From positions 1 to 37,864 of the IMG/VR virus record IMGVR_UViG_3300009702_000052: DNA of 37,864 nt; one strand, written 5' to 3'. The stretch comes from a virus. A model generated the notes under the pieces. It made no database searches, was not told the DNA's origin, and saw nothing but the letters and a program-made list of their open reading frames with translations. Positions 1 to 25,009 of this stretch are shown here, piece after piece. Numbering within the stretch: the first letter of the stretch is position 1; each line of letters begins with the position of its first letter. A program made the position numbers and the translations under genes.

Positions 1-943
1 AAGCCGGTCTGGTTAAAGTTGCTCTCTTATAATCACCATATTCCTGAGTAGAAACAACGCTATAAATAGTGCCCGATTCATCAAAAGAAACTATATCATT
101 TTCCACAGCAAGCAATGTCCTGTCATTAGCAGTACCACCACGCCATTGAGCCTGTGAATATCCCCAATTAGCAACTGTAGTATCAAGGTCATCAATCACA
201 TATACACGATTTTTACCTGCACATAATAATCTGTCCCCATATTCAACAGCATTGATTATGCCGAATTGATCTCCTGTATCTATACTAATAGTAATAACAT
301 TCGCATCTGAAAAATCAGGTTCAGTTGAGCCATCTGAGGTATTAAGATCAGAAGCATATACGGTATACGGGTCTACAGCACCACCAATAGCCCACAAACG
401 CTCTGAAGATTCCCTGCCATGTTTAACCATCTTACGTGGATAATTAAGTCCAGTACTCCAATCTGTTGGCACATTCGTCAATGTTGATGTATTACCTGTA
501 CCTGTCCATACCTCCGGTAAATCATTTCCTGTGCAGATAATAAGTAAATTATTAAATGACTCGAAATGAACTGCCTGATTTATAGTAAGACCGGTCTTTA
601 TTTCAGTATTATAATCTTTCTGTATTTTGCCATCTGAAGTGGCTGTTATAATATATGAATTGCCGTTTTTAAGAGTAAACTGATAAATACCCCATATTCT
701 CGGTGTACCGGTAATTACCGTAGAATTAACATGATCAGTACCACCACGCTTAGACCTGCCTGATCTATGAAGATTTATGTTTCTGGAATTATCTACAAAT
801 GCATTAGCAGATAATTTATCTCGATTAAGATTATTATTAAACCCACCACGACTACAATCAATAACAAATGTCTGCCCTTCATATTGTGCATTTGCTATAG
901 AAGTAACTGACAATACAAATAAAATAATTAGTAGTTTTTTCAT
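1..943 (-). CDS. gp10-like tail stabilisation protein, 3' end beyond window
   Basis: A reading frame starts with ATG at 943 and runs off the left edge without a stop (314 codons seen). Residues 1-19 form a clear Sec signal peptide (MKKLL, hydrophobic core, IANA before Q). The next part has a GGFNNNLNRDKL stretch and an R-S-G-R-S-K-R-G-G-T motif like the N-terminus of P22 gp10 and related beta-propeller tail hub proteins. After this come beta-rich repeats such as YGDRLLCAGKNRVYVIDD. Its place directly downstream of a gp4-like gene fits gp10, which closes the portal channel after packaging. The signal peptide is odd for such a protein. The gp10 assignment rests on pattern and gene order, so it is probable rather than certain. 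Confidence 0.7.
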   Translation of the reverse strand, partial: MKKLLIILFVLSVTSIANAQYEGQTFVIDCSRGGFNNNLNRDKLSANAFVDNSRNINLHRSGRSKRGGTDHVNSTVITGTPRIWGIYQFTLKNGNSYIITATSDGKIQKDYNTEIKTGLTINQAVHFESFNNLLIICTGNDLPEVWTGTGNTSTLTNVPTDWSTGLNYPRKMVKHGRESSERLWAIGGAVDPYTVYASDLNTSDGSTEPDFSDANVITISIDTGDQFGIINAVEYGDRLLCAGKNRVYVIDDLDTTVANWGYSQAQWRGGTANDRTLLAVENDIVSFDESGTIYSVVSTQEYGDYKRATLTRPA

Positions 944-945
944 TT

Positions 946-1275
946 TTATTCTAATAATATCTGACTAGCATCTTCCAATAAAATATAACTACCTGATTCT
1001 AAAAGTAACGAGCCGGTTGTAGCCCATGTTGATATGGCCACACGCCGCCATGTATTTGTTGCCGTACAGATATAAAAATAAGTACTATCATACGCCACTT
1101 GTCCTTCTACTCCTGCACTACTTATTGTTGACGGCACAGATACATTGAAATCATCTAGTGTATTAGCTATCTTCTGTCTATGATCTACAAACGGATTCTT
1201 AATAGTCTTATCAGCAAAACTAAGATTACAATAAACAACTATCATTAATCCTGTAACAATAACCAATATTTTCAT
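946..1275 (-). CDS. small secreted phage structural protein
   Basis: 109 aa. Residues 1-21 are a signal peptide (MKILVIVTG, then NLSFA before D). The middle has the pattern VEGQVAYDSTYFYICTATN followed by TWRRVAISTW, a short beta motif of the GxxxYDxxYxYxCxxxxxWRR type that recurs in small virion and tail proteins of many phages. The C-terminus has repeated ILLE/LLLE units. It is packed between the gp4-like gene (next base) and the gp10-like gene (2-base gap), so the three are co-translated. The function is not known; a small head-tail or fibre component is an inference. Confidence 0.65.
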   Translation of the reverse strand: MKILVIVTGLMIVVYCNLSFADKTIKNPFVDHRQKIANTLDDFNVSVPSTISSAGVEGQVAYDSTYFYICTATNTWRRVAISTWATTGSLLLESGSYILLEDASQILLE

Positions 1276-1998
1276 TTAATAACCTCTATTATAATCCATT
1301 GATCTACTATACCTGTTACTGACAATCGCATTATCAAGAGATACCGTATCAGCAAGTTTCTCTATTGCATTATAATCCTCAAGCGCACGCTTACTCTCTA
1401 TAGCAATACGCCTGACATCATCACTTAGTTTACTTTTAAGTTCATTACCAAGTCTTAAAGCAAGATTATAAACCAATGTTTCATTTATCGCTAATGGCAG
1501 ACTTAATGTATCCGTTTTTGCCGTTACATCAGTAAGTGCCTTTTCTGATTGCATGTGGAAATCATATGCAGTGTCACATGCATCACTGAATTTTATCTTT
1601 CCGGTAGGATATTGTGGGTCGTAATAAAGTGATCTTGGTCTTAAATTTAAAGATTTCTGAGTAATTTTTGCATATTCACTCTTTGTCATATCCACATTAA
1701 TAGGATAATCAACACTACTTATTCTGAAAAATGCGTTTATTATTCTTAGAGGTCTGCCGGTACTCGTAACAAGATCAGGACTATCACCGATAACACCAAT
1801 AGTATATACTGCTTGCCCTACAGTAAGCGTAAAATTTTCCGTTACATAATTTGGTACGATAAGCCCTTCTACACTCCATGACGATAACATATCCTGAAAC
1901 GCTTCAAGTGCATATCCATCTTGAGTTGACGTAGGTGATTTTACCGCATTTTTGCGATATGCCGCATCAGTTATTTGATTTACTGTCCTATCAGGCAA
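1276..1998 (-). CDS. P22 gp4-like tail accessory / head completion protein
   Basis: 240 aa. Features shared with the P22 gp4 tail accessory factor family are an N-terminal helix with ALEAFQDMLSSWSVEGL, a central LTVGQAVYTIG strand, the PLRIINAFFR segment, YYDPQYPTGKIKF, and a helical end with INETLVYNLALRLGNEL. In P22, gp4 binds the portal after packaging and forms the platform for gp10 and the tail needle. The start is TTG: AGGAG lies 7 bases upstream (AGGAGAATAATTTTG) and no in-frame ATG is near. It follows the coat region and precedes the gp10-like gene, which supports the call. Confidence 0.85.
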   Translation of the reverse strand: MPDRTVNQITDAAYRKNAVKSPTSTQDGYALEAFQDMLSSWSVEGLIVPNYVTENFTLTVGQAVYTIGVIGDSPDLVTSTGRPLRIINAFFRISSVDYPINVDMTKSEYAKITQKSLNLRPRSLYYDPQYPTGKIKFSDACDTAYDFHMQSEKALTDVTAKTDTLSLPLAINETLVYNLALRLGNELKSKLSDDVRRIAIESKRALEDYNAIEKLADTVSLDNAIVSNRYSRSMDYNRGY

Positions 1999-2028: not shown

Positions 2029-2841
2029 TTATAAATCAACCCACCATATAGAATCTACTGTTTTAAATGCTTTTCCGAATTTTTCATCAACCGCTTTTTT
2101 CACTCCCATGTGATCATTGCTGTAATCATGCCCACATATTCTTTTTTTGCATTTAGGCAGCCACGCTTCAATATCAGACTTACATTCTTCATAAGTATGT
2201 CCAGCATCTATGAATACCATATCAACCTTTGTGCCATTGAACATATTTGCCATTTCTACAGAATCACCTTTTAATATTTCAAGATTTTTATAATGACCAA
2301 CATTTTTAATAAACTGATCATATATATTCAATTCAACAGAAGCTAAATCAGACGAATAATCACTATTTGTACCGGAAAAATGATCTACTGCATAGACCTT
2401 CCCATTACAGTTTTCAAGAAATTCTTTTGTACTTCTCCCTTTCCAACAACCAACCTCAACAATAGAATCAGATTTCTTAGCAAATTTCTTTAACACTTTC
2501 AACTCAGCAGGACTCATCCACCCGGATATACCTTCTTCAACTTTATCAAGGTTTTTTACGGCTCTGCCCATAAGATGTTTATGTAAATTTCCTTCATATT
2601 CTCTATTACCTATATGAGTAAAAGTAAGTCTTGGTTCTACCATTACATCACCGCCCATATCAGTCCATTTTTTACAAAAGGCAGTATCTTCACCCCACCA
2701 TTGACCATCATTAAATACTCTCATACCTGTTTCAAAAAAAGGCATTATACCATGAGTATCTGTTTTCAATGCATAATGCACAATCATTGCCTCGAACACT
2801 CTTCTTTGTATCCTCATAAATCCTGTAGGTGCTGATTTCAC
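2029..2841 (-). CDS. Glycosyltransferase C-terminal half fused to class I SAM methyltransferase
   Basis: 270 aa from a GTG start. Residues 1-85 are the second half of a glycosyltransferase-A-like domain (SAPTGFMRIQRRVFEAM, WWGEDTAFCKKW, a C-terminal FTHIG). The first half lies in the next gene upstream in another frame. Residues about 110-270 form a Methyltransf_24-type Rossmann methyltransferase: VEVGCWKG (128-135) binds SAM, then VDH (152-154) and VFIDAGHTYEEC. The GTG overlaps the TGA of the upstream frame (GGGTGA), so expression may need reinitiation or the gene may be broken. It sits among virion genes between coat and gp4. It could glycosylate or methylate a surface sugar or virion component; the substrate is unknown. 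Confidence 0.75.
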   Translation of the reverse strand: MKSAPTGFMRIQRRVFEAMIVHYALKTDTHGIMPFFETGMRVFNDGQWWGEDTAFCKKWTDMGGDVMVEPRLTFTHIGNREYEGNLHKHLMGRAVKNLDKVEEGISGWMSPAELKVLKKFAKKSDSIVEVGCWKGRSTKEFLENCNGKVYAVDHFSGTNSDYSSDLASVELNIYDQFIKNVGHYKNLEILKGDSVEMANMFNGTKVDMVFIDAGHTYEECKSDIEAWLPKCKKRICGHDYSNDHMGVKKAVDEKFGKAFKTVDSIWWVDL

Positions 2842-3215
2842 CCATACAGTCCTGTCTTCTCATCCTTACAATTTTTATGCTCCCTATCAAAATCAATTAC
2901 AATAGGATAATGTTCAAATATCTGTTTCAATCTGTAAGCACCAGCTACAATAGGTTTATCATATTTGATAATTTCTTCCATAGCAGTATCATCAAATATA
3001 AGGTCAGCATCAACAAATAATAAATCTGTACAATCAGTTTCAAGAAATTTTTTAATACAAGCATTTCTTGATCTATCTATATAAAGTTCACTATTATAAA
3101 AAACAGTTACCTTATATCCTCTTTGAATTAAATTGATACAATTATTGAGTATAGATTCGGAACATTTTGCAAAAATTTTATCTTCATATGTTGTTATAGC
3201 TACAAACAAGTTCAT
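2838..3215 (-). CDS. Glycosyltransferase N-terminal half (split gene)
   Basis: 126 aa. It begins MNLFVAITTYED, with the DxD motif of GT-A enzymes in LLFVDADLIFDD, then PIVAGAYRLKQ. It stops at TGA right after EKTGLYG. The natural continuation, VKSAPTGFMRIQRR, is found one frame away, so one extra G in the GGG run would make a single 396-residue protein with the downstream gene. I chose the ATG at 3215 because AAAGGCGG precedes it and the upstream part of the frame would translate the terminator hairpin at 3241-3266. It is either a frameshifted gene, a sequencing error, or a translationally coupled pair. Confidence 0.7.
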   Translation of the reverse strand: MNLFVAITTYEDKIFAKCSESILNNCINLIQRGYKVTVFYNSELYIDRSRNACIKKFLETDCTDLLFVDADLIFDDTAMEEIIKYDKPIVAGAYRLKQIFEHYPIVIDFDREHKNCKDEKTGLYG

Positions 3216-3240
3216 AAAACCGCCTTTTCTATTAAAGATG

Positions 3241-3266
3241 TGGGAGTGGGTTTTATCCCACTCCCA
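3241..3266 (-). terminator. GC-rich hairpin after the 69-aa capsid-region gene
   Basis: Perfect 10-bp arms (TGGGAGTGGG / CCCACTCCCA) with a 6-base loop lie between the gene ending at 3275 and the glycosyltransferase start at 3215. On the minus strand the hairpin is followed by CATCTTTAATA, a weak T-tract. It could be a partial terminator that lowers expression below the capsid genes, or an RNA stabiliser. Confidence 0.5.
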
Positions 3267-3274
3267 TCTCAAAA

Positions 3275-3484
3275 TCATGCTTTGGTAATAAGACCCAAAT
3301 TGTCAAGCGCAGTTGCTATGGCTGCAACATCTGCTTTTAAAAGCGTAGTTGTAGTCCCGGCACTAAGCGTAACAGTCGCTTTTACAATAGGAGTTGTCAA
3401 ACCATAAAAGCCAATCTTATCATCTGATCTGCCCATAAGCGAACCATCAGGCTGGCCACTTGTTAATTGTTCAACTTTTGTCAT
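3275..3484 (-). CDS. Small conserved phage head-region protein
   Basis: 69 aa with DDKIGFYGLTTPIVKATV in the middle and a C-terminal half that looks like a short helix (KADVAAIATALDNLGLI). Small proteins with a KIGFYGxTP motif and an LxxLGL tail are common just after the major capsid gene in phages. Some are annotated as head fibre or decoration proteins, but I cannot assign a role from sequence. AGGAGG (ACAGGAGGTTTTTATTATG) gives a strong ribosome binding site. It lies between two GC-rich hairpins, so its mRNA is set off from both the coat gene and the glycosyltransferase gene. Confidence 0.65.
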   Translation of the reverse strand: MTKVEQLTSGQPDGSLMGRSDDKIGFYGLTTPIVKATVTLSAGTTTTLLKADVAAIATALDNLGLITKA

Positions 3485-3517
3485 AATAAAAACCTCCTGT
3501 ATATTCTGAAAATTATG

Positions 3518-3538
3518 AGGGTGGGATTATCCACCCCC
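3518..3538 (-). terminator. Hairpin after the coat gene, possible attenuator
   Basis: Arms GGGTGG (3519-3524) and CCACCC (3531-3536) with a 6-base loop lie in the 69-bp gap after the coat gene stop. The minus-strand tail is CATAATTTTC, so any termination should be partial. Such a site would let coat be made in excess of downstream proteins. Confidence 0.4.
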
Positions 3539-3553
3539 AAATATTTAAATTTA

Positions 3554-4786
3554 CTATGTAGTTCGTACTCTTGCTGCCCATTCAGGTCTGATAGCTTTAG
3601 CTCCAAAAAGAACATCAATCCTGGTTCCGAACTCATCATTCTTGAAGTCTGAACCATGCCATATTCTCATGGATATACCATCCATAACCTCCCGACTCAT
3701 TCTCTGTCCAGGCTCAAGAGGCAAATCAGCAGTAACAAAAGTAAATGCATCACGGTGATAACAAAGATTCTGCCTTGAACTCGTACTTGCAGCACCACTA
3801 CCCCCGGCAGTAAGGTTTACAACTGCCTTACCGGAACCAGCAGATACTATTTCAACATTCTGTCTTGCACCTGAAGTATAAGGTGTAGGGGAAACCACAA
3901 TAGTATCATTTCCATTAAGAGTATAATCAGTAGTAACCACAAACTGTTGTAAAAATGACTGTCTTACTTTTGTTTCAAGATTAACCGCATATACACCTGC
4001 AATCGTGAATACATCACCTTCTTTTAATGTTTTAGCATTGGTAAACCCTGTAATAACAATACTTGAAGAACCACTTGTTATATCAGTAGATGTATTTACT
4101 ACCGGTGTGGTATCTGTTCTGGAACCATTAGTATGAGAAGGAATCATCTCGGTTTCAAGCCAGTCAAAACCTGCGGCATGGCCAACATATCCATCAAGAA
4201 AAGATTTCTCAATTTCAGCATTTGCATGAAAAAGAGTTTTCAATGTATCGGTTGTTGTTGACATTGCGCTCGCAGTTAACAGTGCATAGCGGTCAGTTCT
4301 CGGAGCAAGAAATTCAGTTAACCTTGCGCCTGCCCTGCGAATATCAATCAAAGCTGCCGGTTGCTTATCTACTGCCGTACCTACAATATTAAATACTTCC
4401 TTATACATAGAAGTAATAATCGTACTCTCTACATCAGCGGCAAGTCTTAACATTGCAGGTCGTAAGTATCTTGCCCTGAAATCCTCTATTTGCATGGTTT
4501 GTTCAAGCGAACTGAAAGATTCCATGTCAACACCCTTCTGCGTTGCAACTGTCAGGGTAGTGGTGTTTTCATCCGCTTCCTGCACATCCATAACCTTGCC
4601 TGTTCTTACAGTATACTGATTAGGATTCCTGATAAGCAGTGTTCCGTTGTTTTTATGTCCATCTCTACCGAATCTATTGTCGTATTGATTATTAATGGTT
4701 TTGAGGAAAGTCAACGCATTATGAAACTCTACCAACGCTTCCCTCGTAATATCACCATCAGATAAATCTTTTAATGTATTTGCCAT
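3554..4786 (-). CDS. Major coat protein, P22 gp5-like
   Basis: 410 aa, close to the 430 aa of P22 coat. The N-terminus MANTLKDLSDGDITREALVEFHN, the RNPNQYTVRTGKVMDVQEADENTTTLTV segment and the QIEDFRARYLRPAMLRLAADVE helix are typical of the P22-like HK97-fold coat family. The central part has a beta-rich Thr/Ser/Gly insertion region (about 215-330), comparable in place to the I-domain. The C-terminus contains GTRIDVLFGAKAIRPEWAAR, the usual end of this family. It follows the scaffold gene, and AAGGAGAAACTT gives a good ribosome binding site. It assembles with the scaffold and portal into the procapsid. Confidence 0.92.
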   Translation of the reverse strand: MANTLKDLSDGDITREALVEFHNALTFLKTINNQYDNRFGRDGHKNNGTLLIRNPNQYTVRTGKVMDVQEADENTTTLTVATQKGVDMESFSSLEQTMQIEDFRARYLRPAMLRLAADVESTIITSMYKEVFNIVGTAVDKQPAALIDIRRAGARLTEFLAPRTDRYALLTASAMSTTTDTLKTLFHANAEIEKSFLDGYVGHAAGFDWLETEMIPSHTNGSRTDTTPVVNTSTDITSGSSSIVITGFTNAKTLKEGDVFTIAGVYAVNLETKVRQSFLQQFVVTTDYTLNGNDTIVVSPTPYTSGARQNVEIVSAGSGKAVVNLTAGGSGAASTSSRQNLCYHRDAFTFVTADLPLEPGQRMSREVMDGISMRIWHGSDFKNDEFGTRIDVLFGAKAIRPEWAARVRTT

Positions 4787-11555: not shown

Positions 11556-11708
11556 ATGACTACAAAGGAGAAAACCCGGATATGGCATAACTACAGAAAC
11601 AACATAGGCTATGCTATACTCCGTGACGACAAAGAGGCTCAGGAGCGGCTACAAGCGGAATTTGAGGCATTTTGCAATGACAACAATTTGGAATATCCAG
11701 AAAAGTAA
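11556..11708 (+). CDS. Small hypothetical protein, first gene of plus island
   Basis: 50 aa: MTTKEKTRIWHNYRNNIGYAIL followed by RDDKEAQERLQAEFEAFCNDNNLEYPEK. GAAAGG precedes the ATG at a good distance (GAAAGGTAATAACATG). It is charged and mostly helical. No family recognised. Being first behind the only plausible plus-strand promoter, it may be an early-expressed protein. Confidence 0.6.
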   Translation: MTTKEKTRIWHNYRNNIGYAILRDDKEAQERLQAEFEAFCNDNNLEYPEK

Positions 11709-12003
11709 TCAATACGGAATTATTGAACCCCTACCCCCTGTAGAAACTCTACCTAACTCTACCACTCTCTCAAGTCCTGATATACCAAATACTTATACAG
11801 CTAGAGAGTTGGTAGAGAGTCAGGGAAACGCTACCAAAACTCTACCAACGGAAGGTGTTGATAATAAAGAGGTTAGGTGTTTGGTAGAGAGTGGTAGAGA
11901 GTTGCAGGAGGGTGAGGAAGGAAAAAATAAAATAAGTGAATTTGTTGATTCCGGGCTGCAAGCTCAGCCTGGGATTAATTATTTTAGTTTGTTAATTTTT
12001 TAG
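11677..12003 (+). CDS. Possible repeat-coding hypothetical protein
   Basis: 108 aa if started at ATG 11677, overlapping the previous gene in another frame. It encodes Pro/Ser/Thr/Glu-rich, probably disordered sequence with recurring ELVES / LVESGREL units that come from repeated GGTAGAGAGT DNA. GAGG stands 9 bases upstream of the ATG. The unusual composition means the DNA repeats, rather than the protein, may be what is selected, so the gene call is uncertain. Confidence 0.4.
   Translation: MTTIWNIQKSNQYGIIEPLPPVETLPNSTTLSSPDIPNTYTARELVESQGNATKTLPTEGVDNKEVRCLVESGRELQEGEEGKNKISEFVDSGLQAQPGINYFSLLIF
11744..11903. repeat. Cluster of GGTAGAGAGT / ACTCTACC repeats
   Basis: Within 160 bases ACTCTACC occurs at about 11747, 11757 and 11839, and GGTAGAGAGT at about 11811, 11883 and 11893, with a variant CTAGAGAGTT at 11801. 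The two orientations can pair into several alternative hairpins. This looks like a cluster of protein-binding sites or iterons. Confidence 0.6.
11951..11972 (+). other. GC-rich hairpin 1 of the plus island
   Basis: CCGGGCTG (11951-11958) and CAGCCTGG (11965-11972) pair with one G-T wobble and a 6-base loop. It stands before the ribosome binding site of the next gene and is not followed directly by a T-run. Confidence 0.4.
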
Positions 12004-12016
12004 AAAGGTAAGAAAA

Positions 12017-12406
12017 ATGAAAGTATCAAAACAAGAAATAGCTGATATTATACTCAGCCTGAATGGCTCAAATGCATCATCTATACACCTGCCAGATGGA
12101 CAGGAATATAAAAGAAAATGTAAATATGATAATGCATGGAGCGATTGGGTTAGAAAATTTGCGAATACAAATGATTTTATCGGGAGATCGGTTGCTGGTG
12201 GAGAATTTGTAGCATATAAAATGTATATTAATGGCAGCAAATGTGCACTAATCCTGTTTTCATGGCTTCAAGGTGGCTTTGATTCTCCAGTTTTGGTTGA
12301 TGGTCACCCAGATAACATCTATGATGCCGGATATTTGTGGCTAGGGGATACTAATGTTGAAGACGAAGAATACATAAATCATCCTATACGTAAAATAATT
12401 AAGTAA
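12017..12406 (+). CDS. Hypothetical protein, plus island
   Basis: 129 aa beginning MKVSKQEIADIILSLNGSN, with a beta-rich middle (IGRSVAGGEFVAYKMYINGSKCALILFSW) and DAGYLWLGDTNVEDEEYINHP near the end. AGAAAGGTAAG gives a good ribosome binding site. The regular mix of strands and turns looks like a folded cytoplasmic domain. No family recognised. Confidence 0.65.
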   Translation: MKVSKQEIADIILSLNGSNASSIHLPDGQEYKRKCKYDNAWSDWVRKFANTNDFIGRSVAGGEFVAYKMYINGSKCALILFSWLQGGFDSPVLVDGHPDNIYDAGYLWLGDTNVEDEEYINHPIRKIIK

Positions 12407-12413
12407 TCCCTTC

Positions 12414-12437
12414 GTGTCCTGGAGTAATCCGGGACAC
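12414..12437 (+). other. GC-rich hairpin 2 of the plus island
   Basis: GTGTCCTGG (12414-12422) pairs with CCGGGACAC (12429-12437), 9 bp with one T-G wobble and an AGTAAT loop. It lies 8 bases after a stop codon. No T-run follows, so simple rho-independent termination is unlikely. Confidence 0.5.
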
Positions 12438-12485
12438 CTTGAAATTACTTTGTTATTTTATATTTATAGAAAGGGAGGTAAGAAA

Positions 12486-12674
12486 ATGAAAAAAAATTGT
12501 GATTATTGCAATTTAAAAGAAGGTGATTTGAATGGACACATAAAACTATTTGAACAAAAAATAAGGTTAAAAAAACGGGGAAGGCCTTATAAGATTGTAA
12601 CCGTATGCTGTATTTCTCATGCAGAAAAACTAGCAGGAGAAATCACGACAATCGAAAAAGTTATTTATTATTAA
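12486..12674 (+). CDS. Small cysteine-containing protein
   Basis: 62 aa starting MKKNCDYCNLKEG, with a second Cys pair plus His (VCCISHAEKL). CxxC ... CCxxH could bind zinc. AAGGGAGG before the ATG is a strong ribosome binding site. The upstream in-frame extension to 12414 would translate the hairpin and is rejected. No family assigned. Confidence 0.6.
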   Translation: MKKNCDYCNLKEGDLNGHIKLFEQKIRLKKRGRPYKIVTVCCISHAEKLAGEITTIEKVIYY

Positions 12675-12693
12675 TTGTGAAAAGGAAGGGCCA

Positions 12694-12720
12694 TGCCGGG
12701 ACGCCTGCAAGTTCCCGGCA
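12694..12720 (+). other. GC-rich hairpin 3 of the plus island
   Basis: TGCCGGGA (12694-12701) pairs with TCCCGGCA (12713-12720). The same arm sequence forms the minus-strand terminator at 17075-17106. Here no T-run follows, so the function may differ. Confidence 0.5.
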
Positions 12721-12775
12721 AATGATAGAAATTTTATTATTTTAGAAACAAAAGGAAAGGAAAGGAAAGCCAAAA

Positions 12776-13027
12776 ATGAGAATTAAAAATAAAACAGAAT
12801 TACGGAAATTGATTAAAAACAGTATCGGAAATGCATATAGTCTGATACGGATAGAATTCTATCGTGACGGCTCCTGGATGCTCTATGCGCATACTGAAGA
12901 ACCTGACCTAGTATTTGCCTGCCAATTGGGAAATCTTGCATATTCCGATGAACAAAATAACAAATCTGTTAACGCAGCTATTACATATAATTTCAAACAA
13001 ATAGAGAAAAGGGAAACCGAAAAATGA
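12776..13027 (+). CDS. Hypothetical protein, plus island
   Basis: 83 aa, beginning MRIKNKTELRKLIKNSIGNA with strands in the middle (IRIEFYRDGSWMLYAHTEEPDLVFACQLG). The ribosome binding site is part of a tandem GGAAA run (AAAGGAAAGGAAAGGAAAG). It overlaps the next gene by 4 bases (ATGA), so the two are coupled. No family recognised. Confidence 0.65.
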   Translation: MRIKNKTELRKLIKNSIGNAYSLIRIEFYRDGSWMLYAHTEEPDLVFACQLGNLAYSDEQNNKSVNAAITYNFKQIEKRETEK

Positions 13028-13455
13028 AAAGCAAAGAGAAGATAGCTGAGTACAACAAACGATATTATAGCAAAAATAAGAAGAAGATACAAAGAGACCG
13101 GAAATTGAAAAAAGAAGGAAAGCTCCAGAGGCGTTGCGCAAATCCAAAATGCAAGAAACCTCTTGAATATGGCGTAAATATGATTAATAACCGTGCTAAA
13201 GTATGTTGTAGCGGAGTACCTGGTGTGTTATCAGAATGCCAGAAGTGGCAGCAAGCGAACTACAAAAAAGCATTGTATCAAAAGAAAGGAACGTATAGGC
13301 GAATACTCACATATAACTCAAAGCCGAAGATAATACAAGTTGCAGGAAGCGAAATACAGGAAAAAGAGCGTGTTTGCTTATGTTGCGAGAAACCTTTCTT
13401 AAGTTTGTCGAAATTTAATCGCATCTGTAGTCGGTGTAAGACTTTAAGACTTTAA
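13024..13455 (+). CDS. Double zinc-ribbon-like protein
   Basis: 143 aa. The N-terminal 35 residues are highly basic and helical (KRYYSKNKKKIQRDRKLKKEG). Two Cys clusters follow: CANPKCKKPL ... VCCSG ... LSECQKW, then CLCCEKPFLS ... ICSRCKTL at the C-terminus, each of CxxC type. This suggests two zinc-binding modules and nucleic-acid binding. It is the largest gene of the plus island and a candidate regulator of host or phage transcription; that role is inferred from composition only. Confidence 0.65.
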   Translation: MKSKEKIAEYNKRYYSKNKKKIQRDRKLKKEGKLQRRCANPKCKKPLEYGVNMINNRAKVCCSGVPGVLSECQKWQQANYKKALYQKKGTYRRILTYNSKPKIIQVAGSEIQEKERVCLCCEKPFLSLSKFNRICSRCKTLRL

Positions 13456-19689: not shown

Positions 19690-20454
19690 TTATTTTTTTC
19701 CTTTCTCTAAATTTTCCTGAAATTCTTTTAATAAATCTTCCCGAATGCTTATATCAATATTTTTCAATTCTCCCATTTTAGAAACTTTCAAATCATTTTT
19801 TATTAGAATATCTTTAAAGATCTCCATGCCAAGTTGATTTTTATATTTAATAAGTTTATTGAAAAATTCTTCATTTGCATCTTTTGGTTTGTTCTTACGC
19901 TCCGGTGGCTTAATTGGTGCATTATATTTTTCTAGCATTGCATCATCGTCTTCTTCTGCAATATTAAAAATCATTCCAAGCAAATATCTTCTTGCATATT
20001 TTAATGTAGACCCTTTACTGTGTATTGCTGTCATCATTGATGCTCCTTTTATACCAACGCCATCTAAAGGTACATCTATAAAATGCGATGTGTCTATATG
20101 TCCATTTTCATGAGCGATTTTTGCTCTTATACGTATAGTCTTTTCTTCATTAGTTTTTTCCTCACTGAAAGAGATAAAAAAACCATGGTTAGTATATGCA
20201 GGCTTTAGTGTTTCAACTACATCTTTTAGATCAGCATATAAGCTTCTTGTTTGTGAATTATATTTTTGTTTTAGCACTGTTTCAACTTCTGCCTGTGCAA
20301 GAGCAAAATTTTTGTTGTAAGCCTTTTTGGCCTCTCCCGCTTCCCATCGCTCTTGAAGCTCTAACAACTTCTCAAGTTTTTCCAGATCTGTACCTGATTT
20401 TACTGCTAGCTCGATCATTGCTGCTGGGGTAGTTGCAACTTCATTGTTTTGCAT
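19690..20454 (-). CDS. erf: ERF-family single-strand annealing protein
   Basis: 254 aa. ERF signatures: LLELQERWEAGEAKKAYNK, FALAQAEVETVLKQKYNSQT, SLYADLKDVVETLKPAYTNH, GFFISFSEE and GASMMTAIHSKGSTLKYARRYLL followed by IFNIAEEDDDA. ERF proteins form rings that anneal complementary strands for phage recombination and genome circularisation. P22 Erf is 204 aa. It lies at the head of the group DUF669-like, HNH, PD-(D/E)XK nuclease. The ribosome binding site is AGAAAGGAAA. Confidence 0.9.
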   Translation of the reverse strand: MQNNEVATTPAAMIELAVKSGTDLEKLEKLLELQERWEAGEAKKAYNKNFALAQAEVETVLKQKYNSQTRSLYADLKDVVETLKPAYTNHGFFISFSEEKTNEEKTIRIRAKIAHENGHIDTSHFIDVPLDGVGIKGASMMTAIHSKGSTLKYARRYLLGMIFNIAEEDDDAMLEKYNAPIKPPERKNKPKDANEEFFNKLIKYKNQLGMEIFKDILIKNDLKVSKMGELKNIDISIREDLLKEFQENLEKGKK

Positions 20455-20566
20455 TTAATTTTTCCTTTCTTATCAATTTTGTAATCATAATTATATATTT
20501 TCCATCTATTACTTTGTTATATTTCAAACACTTGGATTTAAATTTTAGAAATATTCTATTTCTCAT
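20441..20566 (-). CDS. Possible 41-aa basic peptide
   Basis: A frame beginning MRNRIFLKFKSKCLKYNKVI starts 11 bases before the end of the 84-aa gene and ends 14 bases inside the ERF gene. It would fill the 100-base gap but has no clear ribosome binding site. It is basic and could be spurious. Confidence 0.25.
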   Translation of the reverse strand: MRNRIFLKFKSKCLKYNKVIDGKYIIMITKLIRKEKLNAKQ

Positions 20567-20810
20567 TGTCTGTTTTGTCATAAACAGATATACCATCACC
20601 CGCTGCTTGCAAAATTTTACCAACTCTCATTCTTGCATCTTCTAAATGTCTATATGAAAGCATAATATTAGCTTTCATTTCTTCATGTTGCCCATTGTAA
20701 GCTTGTTCGTTTTTAAATTCTCCATGATTCATCAATGATTTTACTGTCTTACAACCACCTTTAATATCATGCCTAAGTCTATCACATATTGCATTCAATT
20801 CTTCTTCCAT
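20556..20810 (-). CDS. Small helical hypothetical protein
   Basis: 84 aa: MEEELNAICDRLRHDIKGGC, HEEMKANIMLSYRHLEDARMRVGKILQAA. The EMKANIMLSYRHLEDARMRVGKxLQA segment recurs in small phage proteins next to recombination genes. AAGGAGAACATT precedes the ATG. It lies just after the attC-like element at 20840-20946. Confidence 0.65.
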   Translation of the reverse strand: MEEELNAICDRLRHDIKGGCKTVKSLMNHGEFKNEQAYNGQHEEMKANIMLSYRHLEDARMRVGKILQAAGDGISVYDKTDNEK

Positions 20811-20839
20811 AATGTTCTCCTTATCCCCAAGTGTTTGAA

Positions 20840-20946
20840 ATATAACAAACCGCTCCAGCTTACCGGCAATGCTCGTGCGATCTAGGTTTTAATTGTTTTC
20901 TAAGTTATTAGTCAACCTGCCGGAAGCTGATCTACGACAGTTATAC
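20840..20946 (+). other. attC-like element A
   Basis: On the plus strand: R''-like ATATAAC (20840-20846), arm CAGCTTACCGGCA (20856-20868), a 49-base centre, arm TGCCGGAAGCTG (20918-20929), R'-like GTTATAC (20940-20946). The arms pair perfectly except for one extra A at 20862. Paired outer cores, a spacer, paired inner arms and a single unpaired base are the marks of integron attC sites. The stop codon of the 69-aa gene lies inside GTTATAC. Confidence 0.65.
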
Positions 20947-21150
20947 CGCTTCCACTAATATAGAATCATTTTCATATCCGTAAGATTTTAATATTCTTAT
21001 TAAATCCCTGATTTCAAATTGTGGAATATCAGTCTCTATTTCAGACCAATAAAAGTCATCATATACAGACACCTTAAAGTGCGGTTTAACCACGCAGTCA
21101 AGATGACTGCGAATATCCTCCTGATTCTCCGGTTTAGTTGTTTGTTTCAT
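20941..21150 (-). CDS. Cassette gene: 69-aa hypothetical protein
   Basis: 69 aa: MKQTTKPENQEDIRSHLDCV, VYDDFYWSEIETDIPQFEIR, ending SYGYENDSILVEAV. It is acidic, with a C-terminal helix-strand pattern (IRDLIRILKSYGYENDSIL). Its TAA falls inside the GTTATAC core of element A. The ribosome binding site is weak (GCGGAGAAG). No family recognised. Confidence 0.6.
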   Translation of the reverse strand: MKQTTKPENQEDIRSHLDCVVKPHFKVSVYDDFYWSEIETDIPQFEIRDLIRILKSYGYENDSILVEAV

Positions 21151-21183
21151 TTTTAACTTCTCCGCAGCATCTTACTTAAGTCT

Positions 21184-21190
21184 GTTATAC
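21184..21190 (+). other. Isolated attC R'-like half site
   Basis: GTTATAC preceded by TTACTTAAGTCT matches the R' side of the attC-like elements, but no left half with paired arms is visible before the next gene start at 21150. It may be what remains of a degraded element between two fused cassettes. Confidence 0.35.
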
Positions 21191-21191
21191 G

Positions 21192-21548
21192 CTACACCCA
21201 TTCTTCATCGTTTTCAAGTGGGCAATCTATATGCACTTTATCATCATCGGTTTGTTCAATAATAATATTGGTTACCAGTTCACACGAATATCTTATATCT
21301 TTAAAAAAGTTAGCGGTTGGTAATTGTTGACAATATGGGCAATCAGCACAACAAGTTACAACTATCTTCTTATTCGCATTTTTTACTCTCTGTAAAATCT
21401 TTAATATCAAATCTGTTTCCTTATAATATGTTTTACATTTTTTCTCATGTATAATTTTTTGTATTTCTAAAATAGCAGATAACAAACCACTGGACGCTGA
21501 CTCGAAATGCACATGCGGTCTAGCCTTTTTTTGTTTTATATCTTTCAT
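21192..21548 (-). CDS. Cassette gene: Cys-containing hypothetical protein
   Basis: 118 aa, beginning MKDIKQKKARPHVHFESASS. A central cluster VTCCADCPYCQQL (CC..C..C) may bind a metal. The end is acidic with VHIDCPLENDEEW. Its helical N-terminal half (LLSAILEIQKIIHEKK) and the Cys cluster do not match a family I know. It lies between two attC-like remnants in the array. Confidence 0.6.
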   Translation of the reverse strand: MKDIKQKKARPHVHFESASSGLLSAILEIQKIIHEKKCKTYYKETDLILKILQRVKNANKKIVVTCCADCPYCQQLPTANFFKDIRYSCELVTNIIIEQTDDDKVHIDCPLENDEEWV

Positions 21549-21575
21549 TTTTCTTCTCTCGCAGGTCAGTTTTGA

Positions 21576-21641
21576 CTGATAAGTGTATTGATTGTCATTG
21601 AGATTGCTAGCAGCCAGATTGCCAATCTAGTCCGGCTTAGT
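21576..21641 (+). repeat. 66-bp direct repeat, copy 1
   Basis: Identical over 66 bases to 23227-23292. It runs from CTGATAAGTGTATTG to GTCCGGCTTAGT and contains short inverted repeats (GATTG/CAATC, AGATTGCCAATCT). It lies between element C and the 118-aa gene. Its first bases resemble a damaged attC R' end (CTGATAAG). Confidence 0.85.
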
Positions 21642-21663
21642 CTCCTATCCTCTCGGAAATACA

Positions 21664-21730
21664 CCTATCAAACTCATACAGTGGAGCAACAGAGTCTATG
21701 CGATTTGCTCGATAAACCCGATTTGAAACA
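21664..21730 (+). other. attC-like element C, degenerate
   Basis: CTATCAAACTCATACAG at the left matches the R''-plus-spacer of element F-a (TTATAACAAACTCATACAG) with a 3-base loss. Arms GAGCAA (21684-21689) and TTGCTC (21705-21710) pair. The right side is CGATTTGAAAC, a poor R' match. It is probably a decayed site. The remaining bases to 21776 are AT-rich and I see nothing in them. Confidence 0.4.
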
Positions 21731-21776
21731 CTTTTGTACTTTTATATTTTCTTTATTTATATTATTCATTTGATTA

Positions 21777-22262
21777 TTATAAATTATTCCTTCTTGCATA
21801 TTCCGCTATCAACAAAGCATCTGCATCATGTTTACATATAAATTCTGTCTGATTAGGAAATAATCTACATCCTATATCCCTGCTTGCTTTTTTCAATTCC
21901 TTTGCTTTCAGCCCTTTTGGCAATAATTCTTTTTGCCATTGCTTTGCACATATATACATATGTGGTATTTTATGTGATTCTAAGCATATCAATGTTGCTT
22001 CAAGTGCCCGTACTGCCGACAGACTGGCCTTAAACTTATTAGGATTAATCATAGGCTGTTCAATTATTGCGATTGAGTCAGAACTATAAAGATCAATCAT
22101 TATTGATAATAATTTATAGTCTATTCTGGTTATGTTTTGTTTGGCCTTTGTAAACGACTGTTCTTTTTTTACAGGAGTTTTATGTAAGAAATCATAGCCT
22201 TTACTTATTACTCCAATTGTCCCAGTGACACCATTATCTATCCCTATATATGTCTTCTCCAA
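21777..22262 (-). CDS. RuvC-like Holliday junction resolvase
   Basis: 161 aa from a TTG start behind AAAGGG. The RNase H-fold catalytic residues of RuvC are in place: Asp9 in IGIDNG, Glu68 in IIEQP, and Asp146/Asp148 in KHDADALLIAEYA. It is about the length of RuvC (173 aa). It would resolve branched DNA before packaging or during recombination. It shares a unit with a 29-aa ORF between elements D and C, so in the cassette view this is a two-gene cassette. Confidence 0.85.
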   Translation of the reverse strand: MEKTYIGIDNGVTGTIGVISKGYDFLHKTPVKKEQSFTKAKQNITRIDYKLLSIMIDLYSSDSIAIIEQPMINPNKFKASLSAVRALEATLICLESHKIPHMYICAKQWQKELLPKGLKAKELKKASRDIGCRLFPNQTEFICKHDADALLIAEYARRNNL

Positions 22263-22263
22263 T

Positions 22264-22353
22264 TCAATCCCTTTCGTTGTATTTGATTCTGCGATAGAGT
22301 TTATAAACGTTGAGTAAGATTATTAAAAAGATAAGTCTTATAAAATTTCTCAT
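22264..22353 (-). CDS. 29-aa membrane micropeptide
   Basis: The ATG at 22353 has a near-perfect AGGAGGG 6 bases upstream. The peptide begins MRNFIRLIFLIILLNVYKLY and ends basic (RRIKYNERD). A hydrophobic core with flanking basic residues suggests one membrane span. It ends 1 base before the RuvC-like start. The strong ribosome binding site makes it credible despite its size. Confidence 0.6.
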   Translation of the reverse strand: MRNFIRLIFLIILLNVYKLYRRIKYNERD

Positions 22354-22367
22354 TTAAAACCCTCCTA

Positions 22368-22513
22368 TTATAAGTAATCTGCCTACATAGATGTTTGCGG
22401 GAAACCTAAACACCCATTACGAGAGCGAAAGGAGATTATTCTGATGCCTGGTAAATCATAATCTTAAAGTCTCTCTATAGGCAGATTTATTTTCCACTTA
22501 TTACTTGTTATAA
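22368..22513 (+). other. attC-like element D
   Basis: Plus strand: TTATAAG (22368-22374), arm AATCTGCCTACATAG (22376-22390), an 84-base centre, arm CTATAGGCAGATT (22475-22487), GTTATAA (22507-22513). The arms pair over 13 bases with two extra bases (CA) in the left arm. The stop of the 91-aa gene lies in GTTATAA. The left core departs from RYYYAAC. Confidence 0.55.
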
Positions 22514-22783
22514 TTCTATTGTTCCTGCATTCTCAACTACACTTTTTAGTTCATTTGCCGTTTTACAAAAGTTTTCTAATTTATCAAAAATCAAGCCAAA
22601 ATTATAATCATCTTTTAGTGCTTTAACCTTAGTAATTGTATTTGCATAATCTATAGCAGGTAATTTCTGTCCAATGTCTAAGTTGTCTGGCAAATTACCA
22701 TTTACCGCCTTTAAAATCTCTTGTACTTCCTTAGTCTTTGCAGTTATCAAATACCCATCTTCAGTTTTTGCAATTATTTCCAT
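22508..22783 (-). CDS. Cassette gene: 91-aa hypothetical protein
   Basis: 91 aa: MEIIAKTEDGYLITAKTKEV, QEILKAVNGNLPDNLDIGQK, then a helical end (FGLIFDKLENFCKTANELKS). The N-terminal half reads as a small strand-helix domain, EIIAKTEDGYLITAxxxEV, of a kind seen in small phage proteins near recombination genes. AGAAAGGGG precedes the start. The stop overlaps the R' box of element D. Function unknown. Confidence 0.6.
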   Translation of the reverse strand: MEIIAKTEDGYLITAKTKEVQEILKAVNGNLPDNLDIGQKLPAIDYANTITKVKALKDDYNFGLIFDKLENFCKTANELKSVVENAGTIEL

Positions 22784-22810
22784 TTTATACCCCTTTCTGA
22801 TTGTTTTGAA

Positions 22811-22870
22811 TTATAACAACGAATAAAACCGACCAGAAAAACACTGGCGGCTTATCTATGACTGTTATAA
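22811..22870 (+). other. attC-like element E (most canonical)
   Basis: 60 bp. Plus strand: R'' TTATAAC (22811-22817), arm CCGACCAG (22829-22836), a 7-base centre, arm CTGGCGG (22844-22850), R' GTTATAA (22864-22870). The outer cores are exact reverse complements. The inner arms pair with one extra A at 22832. From memory, classical aadA-type attC sites have the same plan (TAACAA, CCGACGCC, GGCGCGGCTTA, GTTAGAT) with the extra A in the same arm. Confidence 0.7.
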
Positions 22871-22872
22871 TA

Positions 22873-23070
22873 TTAATAATCTTTGTTATACATAATTGTT
22901 TCTTGAGCTTTTTCTGCGATTATTTCAATTGTCCACAATTCTTCCTCTGTTCCTCTTCTTGGATATGCTATTTGCCGCATTGTTCTTTGTAATTTTACCA
23001 ATTTATCATATTTCTCTTTGGGTGTTTCTCCGTCAAGTTGACCCCATATAAGATTATCGAACGATTGCAT
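22873..23070 (-). CDS. Cassette gene: 65-aa hypothetical protein
   Basis: 65 aa: MQSFDNLIWGQLDGETPKEK, LVKLQRTMRQIAYPRRGTEE, ending IIAEKAQETIMYNKDY. Mostly helical and charged. GAAAGGAGATATTAG precedes the ATG. The stop lies 3 bases from the R' box of element E. No family recognised. Confidence 0.6.
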   Translation of the reverse strand: MQSFDNLIWGQLDGETPKEKYDKLVKLQRTMRQIAYPRRGTEEELWTIEIIAEKAQETIMYNKDY

Positions 23071-23101
23071 TTTCTAATATCTCCTTTCTTTGTATAAAAT
23101 A

Positions 23102-23233
23102 TTATAACAAACTCATACAGCCGACCAATAATACAGGTGCGGTTTATAACTAATCATTTTAGCTATCACACTTATCTACCGCCTTACCGTGTGCGATGAC
23201 CTATATACTGGCGGCTGATTCCAGACCTGATAA
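23102..23233 (+). other. attC-like element F-a
   Basis: Plus strand: TTATAAC (23102-23108), arm CAGCCGACCA (23118-23127), a long structured centre, arm TGGCGGCTG (23209-23217), right end GATTCCAGACCTGATAA. The arms pair with one extra A at 23124. The R' box lacks its TT (TG--ATAA), so recombination there may be lost. The centre holds its own hairpins, such as CACTTATC/GATAAGTG. Confidence 0.55.
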
Positions 23234-23292
23234 GTGTATTGATTGTCATTGAGATTGCTAGCAGCCAGATTGCCAATCTAGTCCGGCTTAGT
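23227..23292 (+). repeat. 66-bp direct repeat, copy 2
   Basis: Second copy of 21576-21641, identical over 66 bases. It bridges the damaged right end of element F-a and the left end of element F-b. Confidence 0.85.
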
Positions 23293-23400
23293 GGAGCGGC
23301 AAATGGCAACCCGATAAGGCTGATGACATCCTTGTAAGTATTGTATCTCGTTAGAGCAAGGAAAACATTTAGCCGCCCACTGATTCCCGATCTGTTAGAT
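23276..23400 (+). other. attC-like element F-b
   Basis: Plus strand: ATCTAGT (23276-23282), arm GTGGAGCGGCAAATG (23291-23305), centre, arm CATTTAGCCGCCCAC (23366-23380), spacer TGATTCCCGATCT, R' GTTAGAT (23394-23400), an exact GTTRRRY. The arms pair with an extra A in the left arm and one unpaired A in the right arm. Its left core lies inside the 66-bp repeat. Confidence 0.55.
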
Positions 23401-23405
23401 ATTTT

Positions 23406-23624
23406 TTATTTACTTATTAGCCGTCTATAAATCCTATGTGCTGGATAGCTTGAATCAGGAGCTTTCTTTCCTATACAAGTTGCAGGTTTCCATACAGGAT
23501 TATCTTTCATACCATCTCTACACATATCTACCCAGTCACCTTTTCTTATAATCTCGTTATGCTTAAGATTGCGCCATTTTACATTACTCCAATCAGGAAT
23601 ATTTTTTATTTTATTTTTATTCAT
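23406..23624 (-). CDS. Cassette gene: 72-aa hypothetical protein
   Basis: 72 aa, beginning MNKNKIKNIPDWSNVKWRNL. The middle, IIRKGDWVDMCRDGMKDNPVWKPATCIGKKAPD, resembles short phage proteins with an xRKGDxxD pattern. The end is basic (HRIYRRLISK). TAGGGG precedes the start. The stop lies 2 bases from element F-b. Function unknown. Confidence 0.6.
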   Translation of the reverse strand: MNKNKIKNIPDWSNVKWRNLKHNEIIRKGDWVDMCRDGMKDNPVWKPATCIGKKAPDSSYPAHRIYRRLISK

Positions 23625-23659
23625 TATTTTTACCCCTATTATGTGTTCCTACTTCAGAC

Positions 23660-23666
23660 GTTATAA
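23660..23666 (+). other. Isolated attC R'-like half site
   Basis: GTTATAA preceded by CTACTTCAGAC, like the right flank of element F-a (GATTCCAGAC). The stop of the 69-aa gene lies inside it. Only 35 bases separate the two genes here and no paired arms fit, so this looks like an element reduced to one half. Confidence 0.4.
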
Positions 23667-23870
23667 TTTTAATTCTGGATTATCTGGACATCCATGATAA
23701 TTCCGATTACTACAAGAATAATAAGTATCACTTCTTATCATACTTCCTTCTGTTCCGTTATAATTTCTATGCTGATATTTATGAGGAACAAAGCATTTAA
23801 AATTTTTGCAATTTGTTCTACTAACATTAACTTTAATAAAACCATTATTTTGTTTTATCTTTATAATCAT
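23661..23870 (-). CDS. Cassette gene: 69-aa basic protein
   Basis: 69 aa: MIIKIKQNNGFIKVNVSRTN, then CKNFKCFVPHKYQHRNYNG and SCSNRNYHGCPDNPELKL. Four Cys and several His are spread over the second half and could form a metal site. No good ribosome binding site is seen. The TAA sits in a GTTATAA core. No family recognised. Confidence 0.55.
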   Translation of the reverse strand: MIIKIKQNNGFIKVNVSRTNCKNFKCFVPHKYQHRNYNGTEGSMIRSDTYYSCSNRNYHGCPDNPELKL

Positions 23871-23883
23871 AATAAATTCAAAA

Positions 23884-24018
23884 ATCTAACAAGCTCATAA
23901 AGTTAGGCGCAAATGCACCTGTCAAGTTTTCATCCCAGGCGGCCTATCAGTTAGTCGAACACTGACATCTCGTCCCAGAGCACTCCATTTGCGCCCAATG
24001 ATTCCTGATTTGTTATAA
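23884..24018 (+). other. attC-like element G
   Basis: Plus strand: R'' ATCTAAC (23884-23890, exact RYYYAAC), spacer AAGCTCATAAAG, arm TTAGGCGCAAATG (23903-23915), a 70-base structured centre, arm CATTTGCGCCCAA (23986-23998), spacer TGATTCCTGATTT, R' GTTATAA (24012-24018). The arms pair over 10 bp plus two beyond one mismatch. The stop of the 61-aa gene overlaps R'. Confidence 0.65.
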
Positions 24019-24198
24019 TTTTAAATCAAAACAAATATCTCTTATACTATCAGAGATACTAACACCTTGAGCATACCACTTCCCGCCAATTGAAGTTATC
24101 TTGTCAATTATTAATTTATCATAATCAGAATTAATTCCTTGATTTTCAGTTTTATCAAAATTTGGCAACTTGTAAGTTACTTTAATCCTTGCTTCCAT
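24013..24198 (-). CDS. Cassette gene: 61-aa hypothetical protein
   Basis: 61 aa: MEARIKVTYKLPNFDKTENQ, SDYDKLIIDKITSIGGKWYAQGVSISDSIRDICFDL. The pattern KxxxKITSIGGKWYxQGxxxxxxxRDIxFxL looks like a small folded alpha/beta protein. AAAGGAGTG precedes the start. The stop TAA lies in the GTTATAA box of element G. It is the first gene of the array in transcription order. Confidence 0.65.
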   Translation of the reverse strand: MEARIKVTYKLPNFDKTENQGINSDYDKLIIDKITSIGGKWYAQGVSISDSIRDICFDLKL

Positions 24199-24225
24199 AA
24201 TACATACACTCCTTTATATAAAAAA

Positions 24226-24244
24226 TTATAACAAACTTATATCC
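24226..24244 (+). other. attC R''-like half site at the array edge
   Basis: TTATAACAAACTTATATCC matches the left end of the attC-like elements (compare TTATAACAAACTCATACAG), but the bases beyond it code for the end of the ribbon-helix-helix protein and no second half is seen. It may mark the array boundary, in the place an attI-like or terminal half site would occupy. Confidence 0.35.
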
Positions 24245-24245
24245 A

Positions 24246-24398
24246 TTATTTCTTCTTAATAAAATAGGAAACAATTAAACTTTCGATAAAACTTGATAAA
24301 CTTTTAGTCAGTTTATCAGCTTCAATTTTAGCCTTCCGGTGAACATTATAAGACAAATTAATATTATATCTTTTTTTCTGTGTTTTTGTTTTCTTCAT
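24246..24398 (-). CDS. Ribbon-helix-helix DNA-binding protein
   Basis: 50 aa. After a Lys-rich start (MKKTKTQKK), RYNINLSYNVHRKAKIEADK and LTKSLSSFIESLIVSYFIKK give the strand-helix-helix pattern of Arc/CopG-type regulators. Its promoter (24406-24434) puts transcription start at the ATG, with no ribosome binding site. It precedes the cassette array and is the only plausible transcription regulator on this strand. It may control its own promoter, where TGTGTATTTGTGTATA contains a direct repeat. Confidence 0.65.
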   Translation of the reverse strand: MKKTKTQKKRYNINLSYNVHRKAKIEADKLTKSLSSFIESLIVSYFIKKK

Positions 24399-24405
24399 GA
24401 TAAAA

Positions 24406-24434
24406 AGTATAGCAATTTATACACAAATACACAA
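24406..24434 (-). promoter_or_regulatory. Promoter for the ribbon-helix-helix gene and array
   Basis: TTGTGT (24434-24429), 17 bases, TATACT (24411-24406) on the minus strand. The predicted start falls about 24399, next to the ATG at 24398. A TGTGTA direct repeat within the spacer is a candidate operator. Confidence 0.6.
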
Positions 24435-24688
24435 CATTTATTTTATTGATTTTGAAATTTATTTTATGAAAATTGTATAGAAAAAAGAGAAGTATACAAG
24501 ATATAGCAATGACGGCAATGGGCAGCAGATGGATTCGATTATGGAAACATGCGGAATATCACAATGCAGGGAAACTGAGGAAGTAATGTGCTATTTAATA
24601 GGCTGGCTTAAAATTAATGTGCAAGATAAGGTTTATGATAAATTTGATAAATAAGAAGTAATAACTTAGAAGATTATTTTGCTAAATA
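24435..24688. other. 254-base gap with a possible plus-strand 41-aa ORF
   Basis: The gap between the lysis-side genes and the ribbon-helix-helix gene is AT-rich at both ends. A plus-strand frame 24529-24654 begins MDSIMETCGISQCRETEEVM and reads well as protein (CYLIGWLKINVQDKVYDKFDK), and a second frame starts at 24511. Neither has a good ribosome binding site or an obvious promoter. The gene call is tentative. Confidence 0.3.
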
Positions 24689-25009
24689 TTAATTTCTATG
24701 AATAAATGAATATACTAATCTTCCTATAACACCCATAATTGTCACTCCTATAAGAGTTAGCATCTTAACTATAAATCCCTGTTTTACGCAATATTCTGTC
24801 ATACTTTTATTAATATCCTCTGTATTTTTGATTGAACTTTTCCTGAATGCTTGACAATCATTAATTTCTTTTTTTATTATGTCATCGGCCATTTCCATCT
24901 TTGCTATTTTAATATCTATTTTATTTGTCGTCTTGTGAACTTCTTCAATCTTATCAAACAATTTCTCTACTGATGATTTGACTTCTCTTACAACTTCACC
25001 ATTATCCAT
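24689..25009 (-). CDS. Coiled-coil protein with C-terminal membrane span, XhlA-like
   Basis: 106 aa. Residues 1-75 are helical and charged (VREVKSSVEKLFDKIEEVHK), and residues about 82-100 form one membrane span (MLTLIGVTIMGVIGRLVYSF) with a short basic tail. This plan matches XhlA/hemolysin-type proteins that assist holins. It closes the lysis-side cluster. The call is based on architecture only. Confidence 0.55.
   Translation of the reverse strand: MDNGEVVREVKSSVEKLFDKIEEVHKTTNKIDIKIAKMEMADDIIKKEINDCQAFRKSSIKNTEDINKSMTEYCVKQGFIVKMLTLIGVTIMGVIGRLVYSFIHRN

Follow-up and report, generated by a model that had tools for sequence, protein, structure and literature searches.

An attC-like hairpin bounding reversed gene cassettes in an uncultivated phage

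Is the 60-base hairpin at positions 22811-22870 of an uncultivated phage sequence an integron-type recombination site (attC), and if so, what does it do in a genome that carries no integron integrase? The hairpin, which we call element E, lies on the plus strand of a 37,864-base virus record (IMG/VR IMGVR_UViG_3300009702_000052), referred to here as the window. The window encodes a P22-like portal (E 3.6e-123) and coat protein, a scaffold protein, primase/helicase, ERF and a Holliday-junction resolvase-like gene. Its closest deposited relatives are far (portal 34%, helicase 39%). A block of small plus-strand ORFs (11611-13455) runs opposite to most genes of the contig; one of them (13024-13455) matches phrog_13335, of unknown function, and three others tried have no PHROG match.

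The initial annotation described E as close to a textbook attC with exact 7-base cores, arms carrying a single extra A, and a 7-base loop, and the sequence confirms these cores, arms and loop. R'' (TTATAAC) is at 22811-22817, L'' is at 22829-22836 (CCG at 22829-22831, the extra A at 22832 and CCAG at 22833-22836), the loop AAAAACA is at 22837-22843, L' is at 22844-22850 (CTGG at 22844-22847 and CGG at 22848-22850), and R' (GTTATAA) is at 22864-22870. The outer stem is 8 bp, one pair more than had been noted. The minus strand folds as DNA at -7.8 kcal/mol (z -4.1; 0 of 200 shuffles as good) with one unpaired T opposite the extra A, and the plus strand folds similarly (z -4.0). The pattern TTATAAC-N30-60-GTTATAA occurs once in the window (expected 0.03), and an E-like site (7-bp core plus bulged arms) appeared in 7 of 500 Markov-shuffled copies of the array region.

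How closely does E resemble the aadA attC of class 1 integrons, to which the initial annotation compared it? We checked the aadA attC sequence against plasmids (2513 records match, 1962 of them at 99% or more) and folded both sites. The minus strand of E and the bottom strand of the aadA attC share the outer core stem, the bulged inner stem and an unpaired T on the 3' arm, which supports the proposed likeness. However, E has only one of the two unpaired bases of aadA, has a 7-base loop and is weaker (-7.8 against -18.2 kcal/mol), and its cores depart from the strict RYYYAAC/GTTRRRY consensus, GTTATAA breaking two of the four variable positions. Sites found here in phage TJE1 (GTTATAC, GTTATGC) also break the middle R, so the consensus is not absolute. 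A covariance model built from 14 other viral attC sites, none from the window, ranks E first in the window, but weakly (14.1 bits, E=0.11; next 8.8). E had also been proposed as the best single test case for recombination activity; it is not the strongest one, since other viral attC sites score far higher and phage attC sites are reported to recombine with IntI1 (PMC9892861).

E is not alone. Element A (20840-20946) and element D (21084-21190), both on the plus strand, have bulged GC-rich arms with the extra A in the 5' arm, on the same strand as in E. A folds little better than chance (z -1.65), and the lowest-energy single-strand fold of D is not a cruciform. Further plus-strand elements with degenerate cores were judged by eye: a longer attC-like element with imperfect arms left of the E cassette (22366-22513), an element with GCCG-A-CCA/TGG-CGGC arms and a degenerate R' (23102-23232), and a longer element with 10-bp perfect arms GGCGCAAATG/CATTTGCGCC (23884-24018), whose R'' pairs with 23394 for 7 bases. 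About 64 identical bases (21578-21641 and 23229-23292) are repeated at the start of two intervals without a called gene, followed by different hairpins; the cores there are degenerate (GATAAG). The Holliday-junction resolvase-like gene (21777-22262, minus strand; phrog_1770, E 1.3e-14) also lies inside the array region.

We next asked whether these elements bound cassettes. In an integron circle R' and R'' should come from the same cassette, so that after integration the start of a cassette would stay complementary to its own R''. Cassette ends in the window show this, with the break at G|TT. The cassette that ends in E (22508-22864, 357 bp, between G|TT at 22507/22508 and at 22864/22865) has ends complementary for 10 bases (22507/22817). 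The ends of the next cassette (22864/23108) show a run of 11, those of the cassette that ends in A (20517-20940; pair 20516/20846) match at 14 of 14, and those of the last interval (24012-24232) at 12 of 14; no full attC was seen beyond the latter. Of 4239 background pairs outside the array, none reaches 12 and 5 reach 11. In the array region, six pairs with a run of 10 or more occur against a mean of 0.056 in shuffles, and 0 of 500 shuffles have 4 or more. The six are not independent, because five share the GTTATAAT core and three share one R''. The same signature is present more widely: in 331 viral cassettes the outer 8 bases match the same cassette's R'' better than the same site's (3.75 against 2.48, random 2.47; 221 higher, 66 lower), as in 267 bacterial ones (4.35 against 2.88). 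An inverted repeat of about 20 bp (20516-20538 and 20829-20852) flanks the gene of the first cassette; no attC was seen to the left of this cassette, so this end may be an attI-like insertion point.

Interestingly, the genes of the array run against attC, a point that the initial annotation does not mention. Every SD-bearing ORF of at least 35 aa in 20450-24700 is on the minus strand. Most intervals hold one minus-strand gene (23394-23890 holds two small ORFs): 22508-22783 in the E cassette (91 aa, SD present), 20556-20810 in the cassette of A (84 aa), 20941-21150 in the cassette of D (69 aa), 22873-23070 in the cassette after E (65 aa) and 24013-24198 in the last interval (61 aa). Several stop codons fall in the R' box itself, for example at 22508, in the previous R' box, at 20941, in the R' box of A, and at 24013. 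The start codon of the D cassette gene lies in the loop of D. The gene of the E cassette has homologues in two other viral contigs, L382 (59%) and L383 (48%), outside any recognisable cassette and with no attC beside them, so it may be an ordinary phage gene turned into a cassette.

Do other viral sequences carry comparable arrays? A helicase search found 50 viral loci. One of them, L007, has a tandem array of near-canonical attC sites in its early region, where the covariance model finds 11 sites, all on one strand; only L007 among the 50 has model hits, so the array is sporadic. Searches with the ERF protein and with a 30-base repeat of the window found no viral relatives. A first site detector was too strict on core pairing and missed most L007 sites, while a second gave 209 sites against 105 in shuffles over 111 loci, so that single hits are not trusted, only clusters and motif-anchored sites. 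A scan of viral contigs for Vibrio-type attC returned 14 stretches whose context does not look like attC, from which we draw no conclusion.

The reversed orientation occurs in most attC arrays found here in viral contigs. We called a cassette reversed (R) or forward (F) when the better SD-weighted ORF score exceeded that of the other strand 1.5-fold. Before dereplication, viral cassettes are 243 R, 18 F, 14 undecided and 57 without ORF (332 in all), and bacterial cassettes in arrays with the same attC motif are 145 F, 41 R, 30 undecided and 52 without ORF (268). After dereplication, the viral set is 215 R, 13 F, 13 undecided and 56 without ORF (297), and the bacterial set 142 F, 40 R, 29 undecided and 48 without ORF (259). 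By locus majority, viral loci are 78 R, 5 F and 2 ties, and bacterial loci 53 F, 5 R and 11 ties. The viral set includes the window, L007, L108 (same contig as L007) and some loci cut from one contig, whereas loci L001-L006 and L008-L057 were not in this count. The script called L007 one F and one without ORF, although its long ORFs in the array (652-1338, 1442-2122, 3723-4202) are minus. In 30 homologous viral pairs, third codon positions change most in the called reverse ORFs (0.337 against 0.219 and 0.210). In 66 of 243 reversed viral cassettes the chosen start codon lies inside the attC and in 119 more within 40 bases of it, and 167 of 243 stop codons lie near the previous R'; element D of the window shows the same arrangement.

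Deposited annotation agrees for three phage genomes. MW202573 has six model hits on minus among plus-strand genes, PH101 has two on plus among minus-strand genes, and P12002L has one detected site on plus among minus-strand genes, though it is not a model hit. TJE1 and Virus Rctr41k are forward, so the rule is not universal. attC clusters lacking an integrase (CALIN) have already been reported in PH101, P12002L, TJE1 and MW202573, with 5 of 6 tested phage attC sites recombining with IntI1 and those of PH101 recombining about as well as attCaadA7 (PMC9892861). The window shares with them attC-bounded cassettes without intI, but its lineage is uncultivated and its attC is AT-rich and weaker. The main text of that paper does not use the words "reverse" or "opposite", and we saw no remark on gene inversion in the sections we read. 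The aadA gene, for its part, normally runs with attC, while the gene of E runs against it. Chromosomal integrons of Rubrivivax and other Burkholderiales share the attC 3' motif used in our scans and the cassette-end signature, but their genes are mostly forward, and E itself is of another, AT-rich type.

Where might an integrase come from? No TIGR02249 match was found in the window, whose contig may be incomplete, or in L007. Of 30 viral records with attC arrays, one is above the TIGR02249 cut-off, the contig of locus L157 (428 bits). There intI (698-1807, minus strand) is followed by five plus-strand attC sites with minus-strand genes (2167-4169), so that the cassette genes lie on the intI strand, as also seen beside full-length integron integrases in relatives among L356-L381. 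The L157 protein matches IntI4 (2a3v) at 272 bits against 119 for the best Xer protein. A viral scan with it found 28 loci at 41-100% identity, in which attC sites are mostly opposite to intI and cassettes are 29 R, 7 F, 5 without ORF and 3 undecided. Terminase profiles hit 14 of 28 viral records tried (10 with phrog_2, 9 with PF03237, 5 in common), including one of the IntI-bearing contigs (L362); the window has no hit with either but has portal and coat proteins. IntI together with attC in a viral genome is known from integrons inside temperate phages (Vibrio anguillarum p16, Shewanella M16-3; PMC9892861). It is also present in Virus Rctr41k (KX853513, 4680-10101), which has its own IntI-like gene (annotated xerD, integrase-like) and six forward attC-like sites of about 130 bp.

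Viral contigs share cassettes end to end, some with different neighbours. L220 lacks one 388-bp cassette that L177 has between flanks of 98.9-99.7% identity, and L223 has one more than L125. Homologous recombination between attC copies could give the first and is not excluded, so we do not take these indels as proof of IntI action. Of 100 reversed-cassette proteins scanned (of 159 listed), Pfam hits are few: N6/N4 methylase 3, C5 methylase 1, RNA ligase, NinX and HTH. PHROGs add HNH endonucleases and other methyltransferases. Proteins beside arrays include RecT, RecE, YqaJ, exonuclease, helicase and a tail fibre.

Taken together, we consider it likely (probability roughly 0.8) that E is an attC-type site in a cluster of gene cassettes carried by a P22-like phage contig without an integron integrase. 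Recombination of E itself is inferred and was not observed, and the host is unknown. In the mechanism we infer, an IntI from the host or a co-resident phage binds the folded hairpin when the minus strand of E is single-stranded and cuts at G|TT, so that cassettes are gained, lost and swapped. We also infer that, because the genes lie against attC, they are read by the phage operon and not by an integron Pc promoter. Whether transcription exposes the bottom strand, or replication direction favours this orientation, is speculation; orientation relative to the fork is reported to change cassette excision in Vibrio cholerae (PMC11023631).

Among the alternatives, the one that survives best, although we think it unlikely, is that E is a fossil: the array came from past integron-type exchange but E and its neighbours have decayed and no longer recombine. 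The AT-rich weak stem, the one unpaired base, the degenerate cores of several neighbouring elements and the marginal model score fit this view. On the other hand, E keeps an exact 8-bp outer stem, the cassette ends at 22507 and 22864 still fit, and the TJE1 sites with GTTATAC/GTTATGC cores are reported to recombine (PMC9892861). Much less probable is that E is an RNA signal, a weak terminator, processing site or stabiliser whose likeness to attC is convergence. E does lie between two minus-strand genes and would be transcribed, both strands fold, and a loose terminator scan flags part of the stem. Yet terminator hits are no more than in shuffles (2 against mean 1.4), there is no Rfam match, and tRNA and promoter scans likewise gave nothing that explains E. 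Nor does an RNA hairpin explain the complementarity of 22507 to the R'' of E or the extra A on the same strand in A, D and E. Finally, that the reversed pattern is an artefact of gene calling, of the site detector or of mis-binned chromosomal integrons is improbable, for although GC-rich ORFs are ambiguous (40 of 182 decided bacterial cassettes are still called reversed) and TerL was found in only 14 of the 28 viral records tried, the same pipeline gives the opposite result for bacterial arrays with the same motif, codon-position changes support the called strand, and deposited annotation shows the pattern in PH101 and MW202573.

It is tempting to go further, to a hypothesis that we regard as about as likely as not: phages may hold their own kind of integron, with genes reversed relative to attC so that cassettes and, where present, intI form one phage operon without a Pc promoter. 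Such inverted cassettes would circulate between phages as a pool largely separate from bacterial cassettes, and phages without IntI, such as that of the window, would borrow an integrase from the host or a co-infecting phage. While attC clusters in phages are known, we found neither the systematic inversion nor viral integrons with inverted cassettes in the literature searched, which took in neither bioRxiv preprints nor most subscription papers. Integrons are described as platforms in which attC strand choice orients cassette genes for expression from Pc (PMC11023631). Viral arrays that are mostly the other way round would be a second solution to cassette expression, would separate viral from host cassettes by one simple feature, and would give phages a site-specific way to swap small early genes, DNA methyltransferases among them. 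The pattern also offers a screen, in that attC clusters with opposed genes flag phage arrays in metagenomes.
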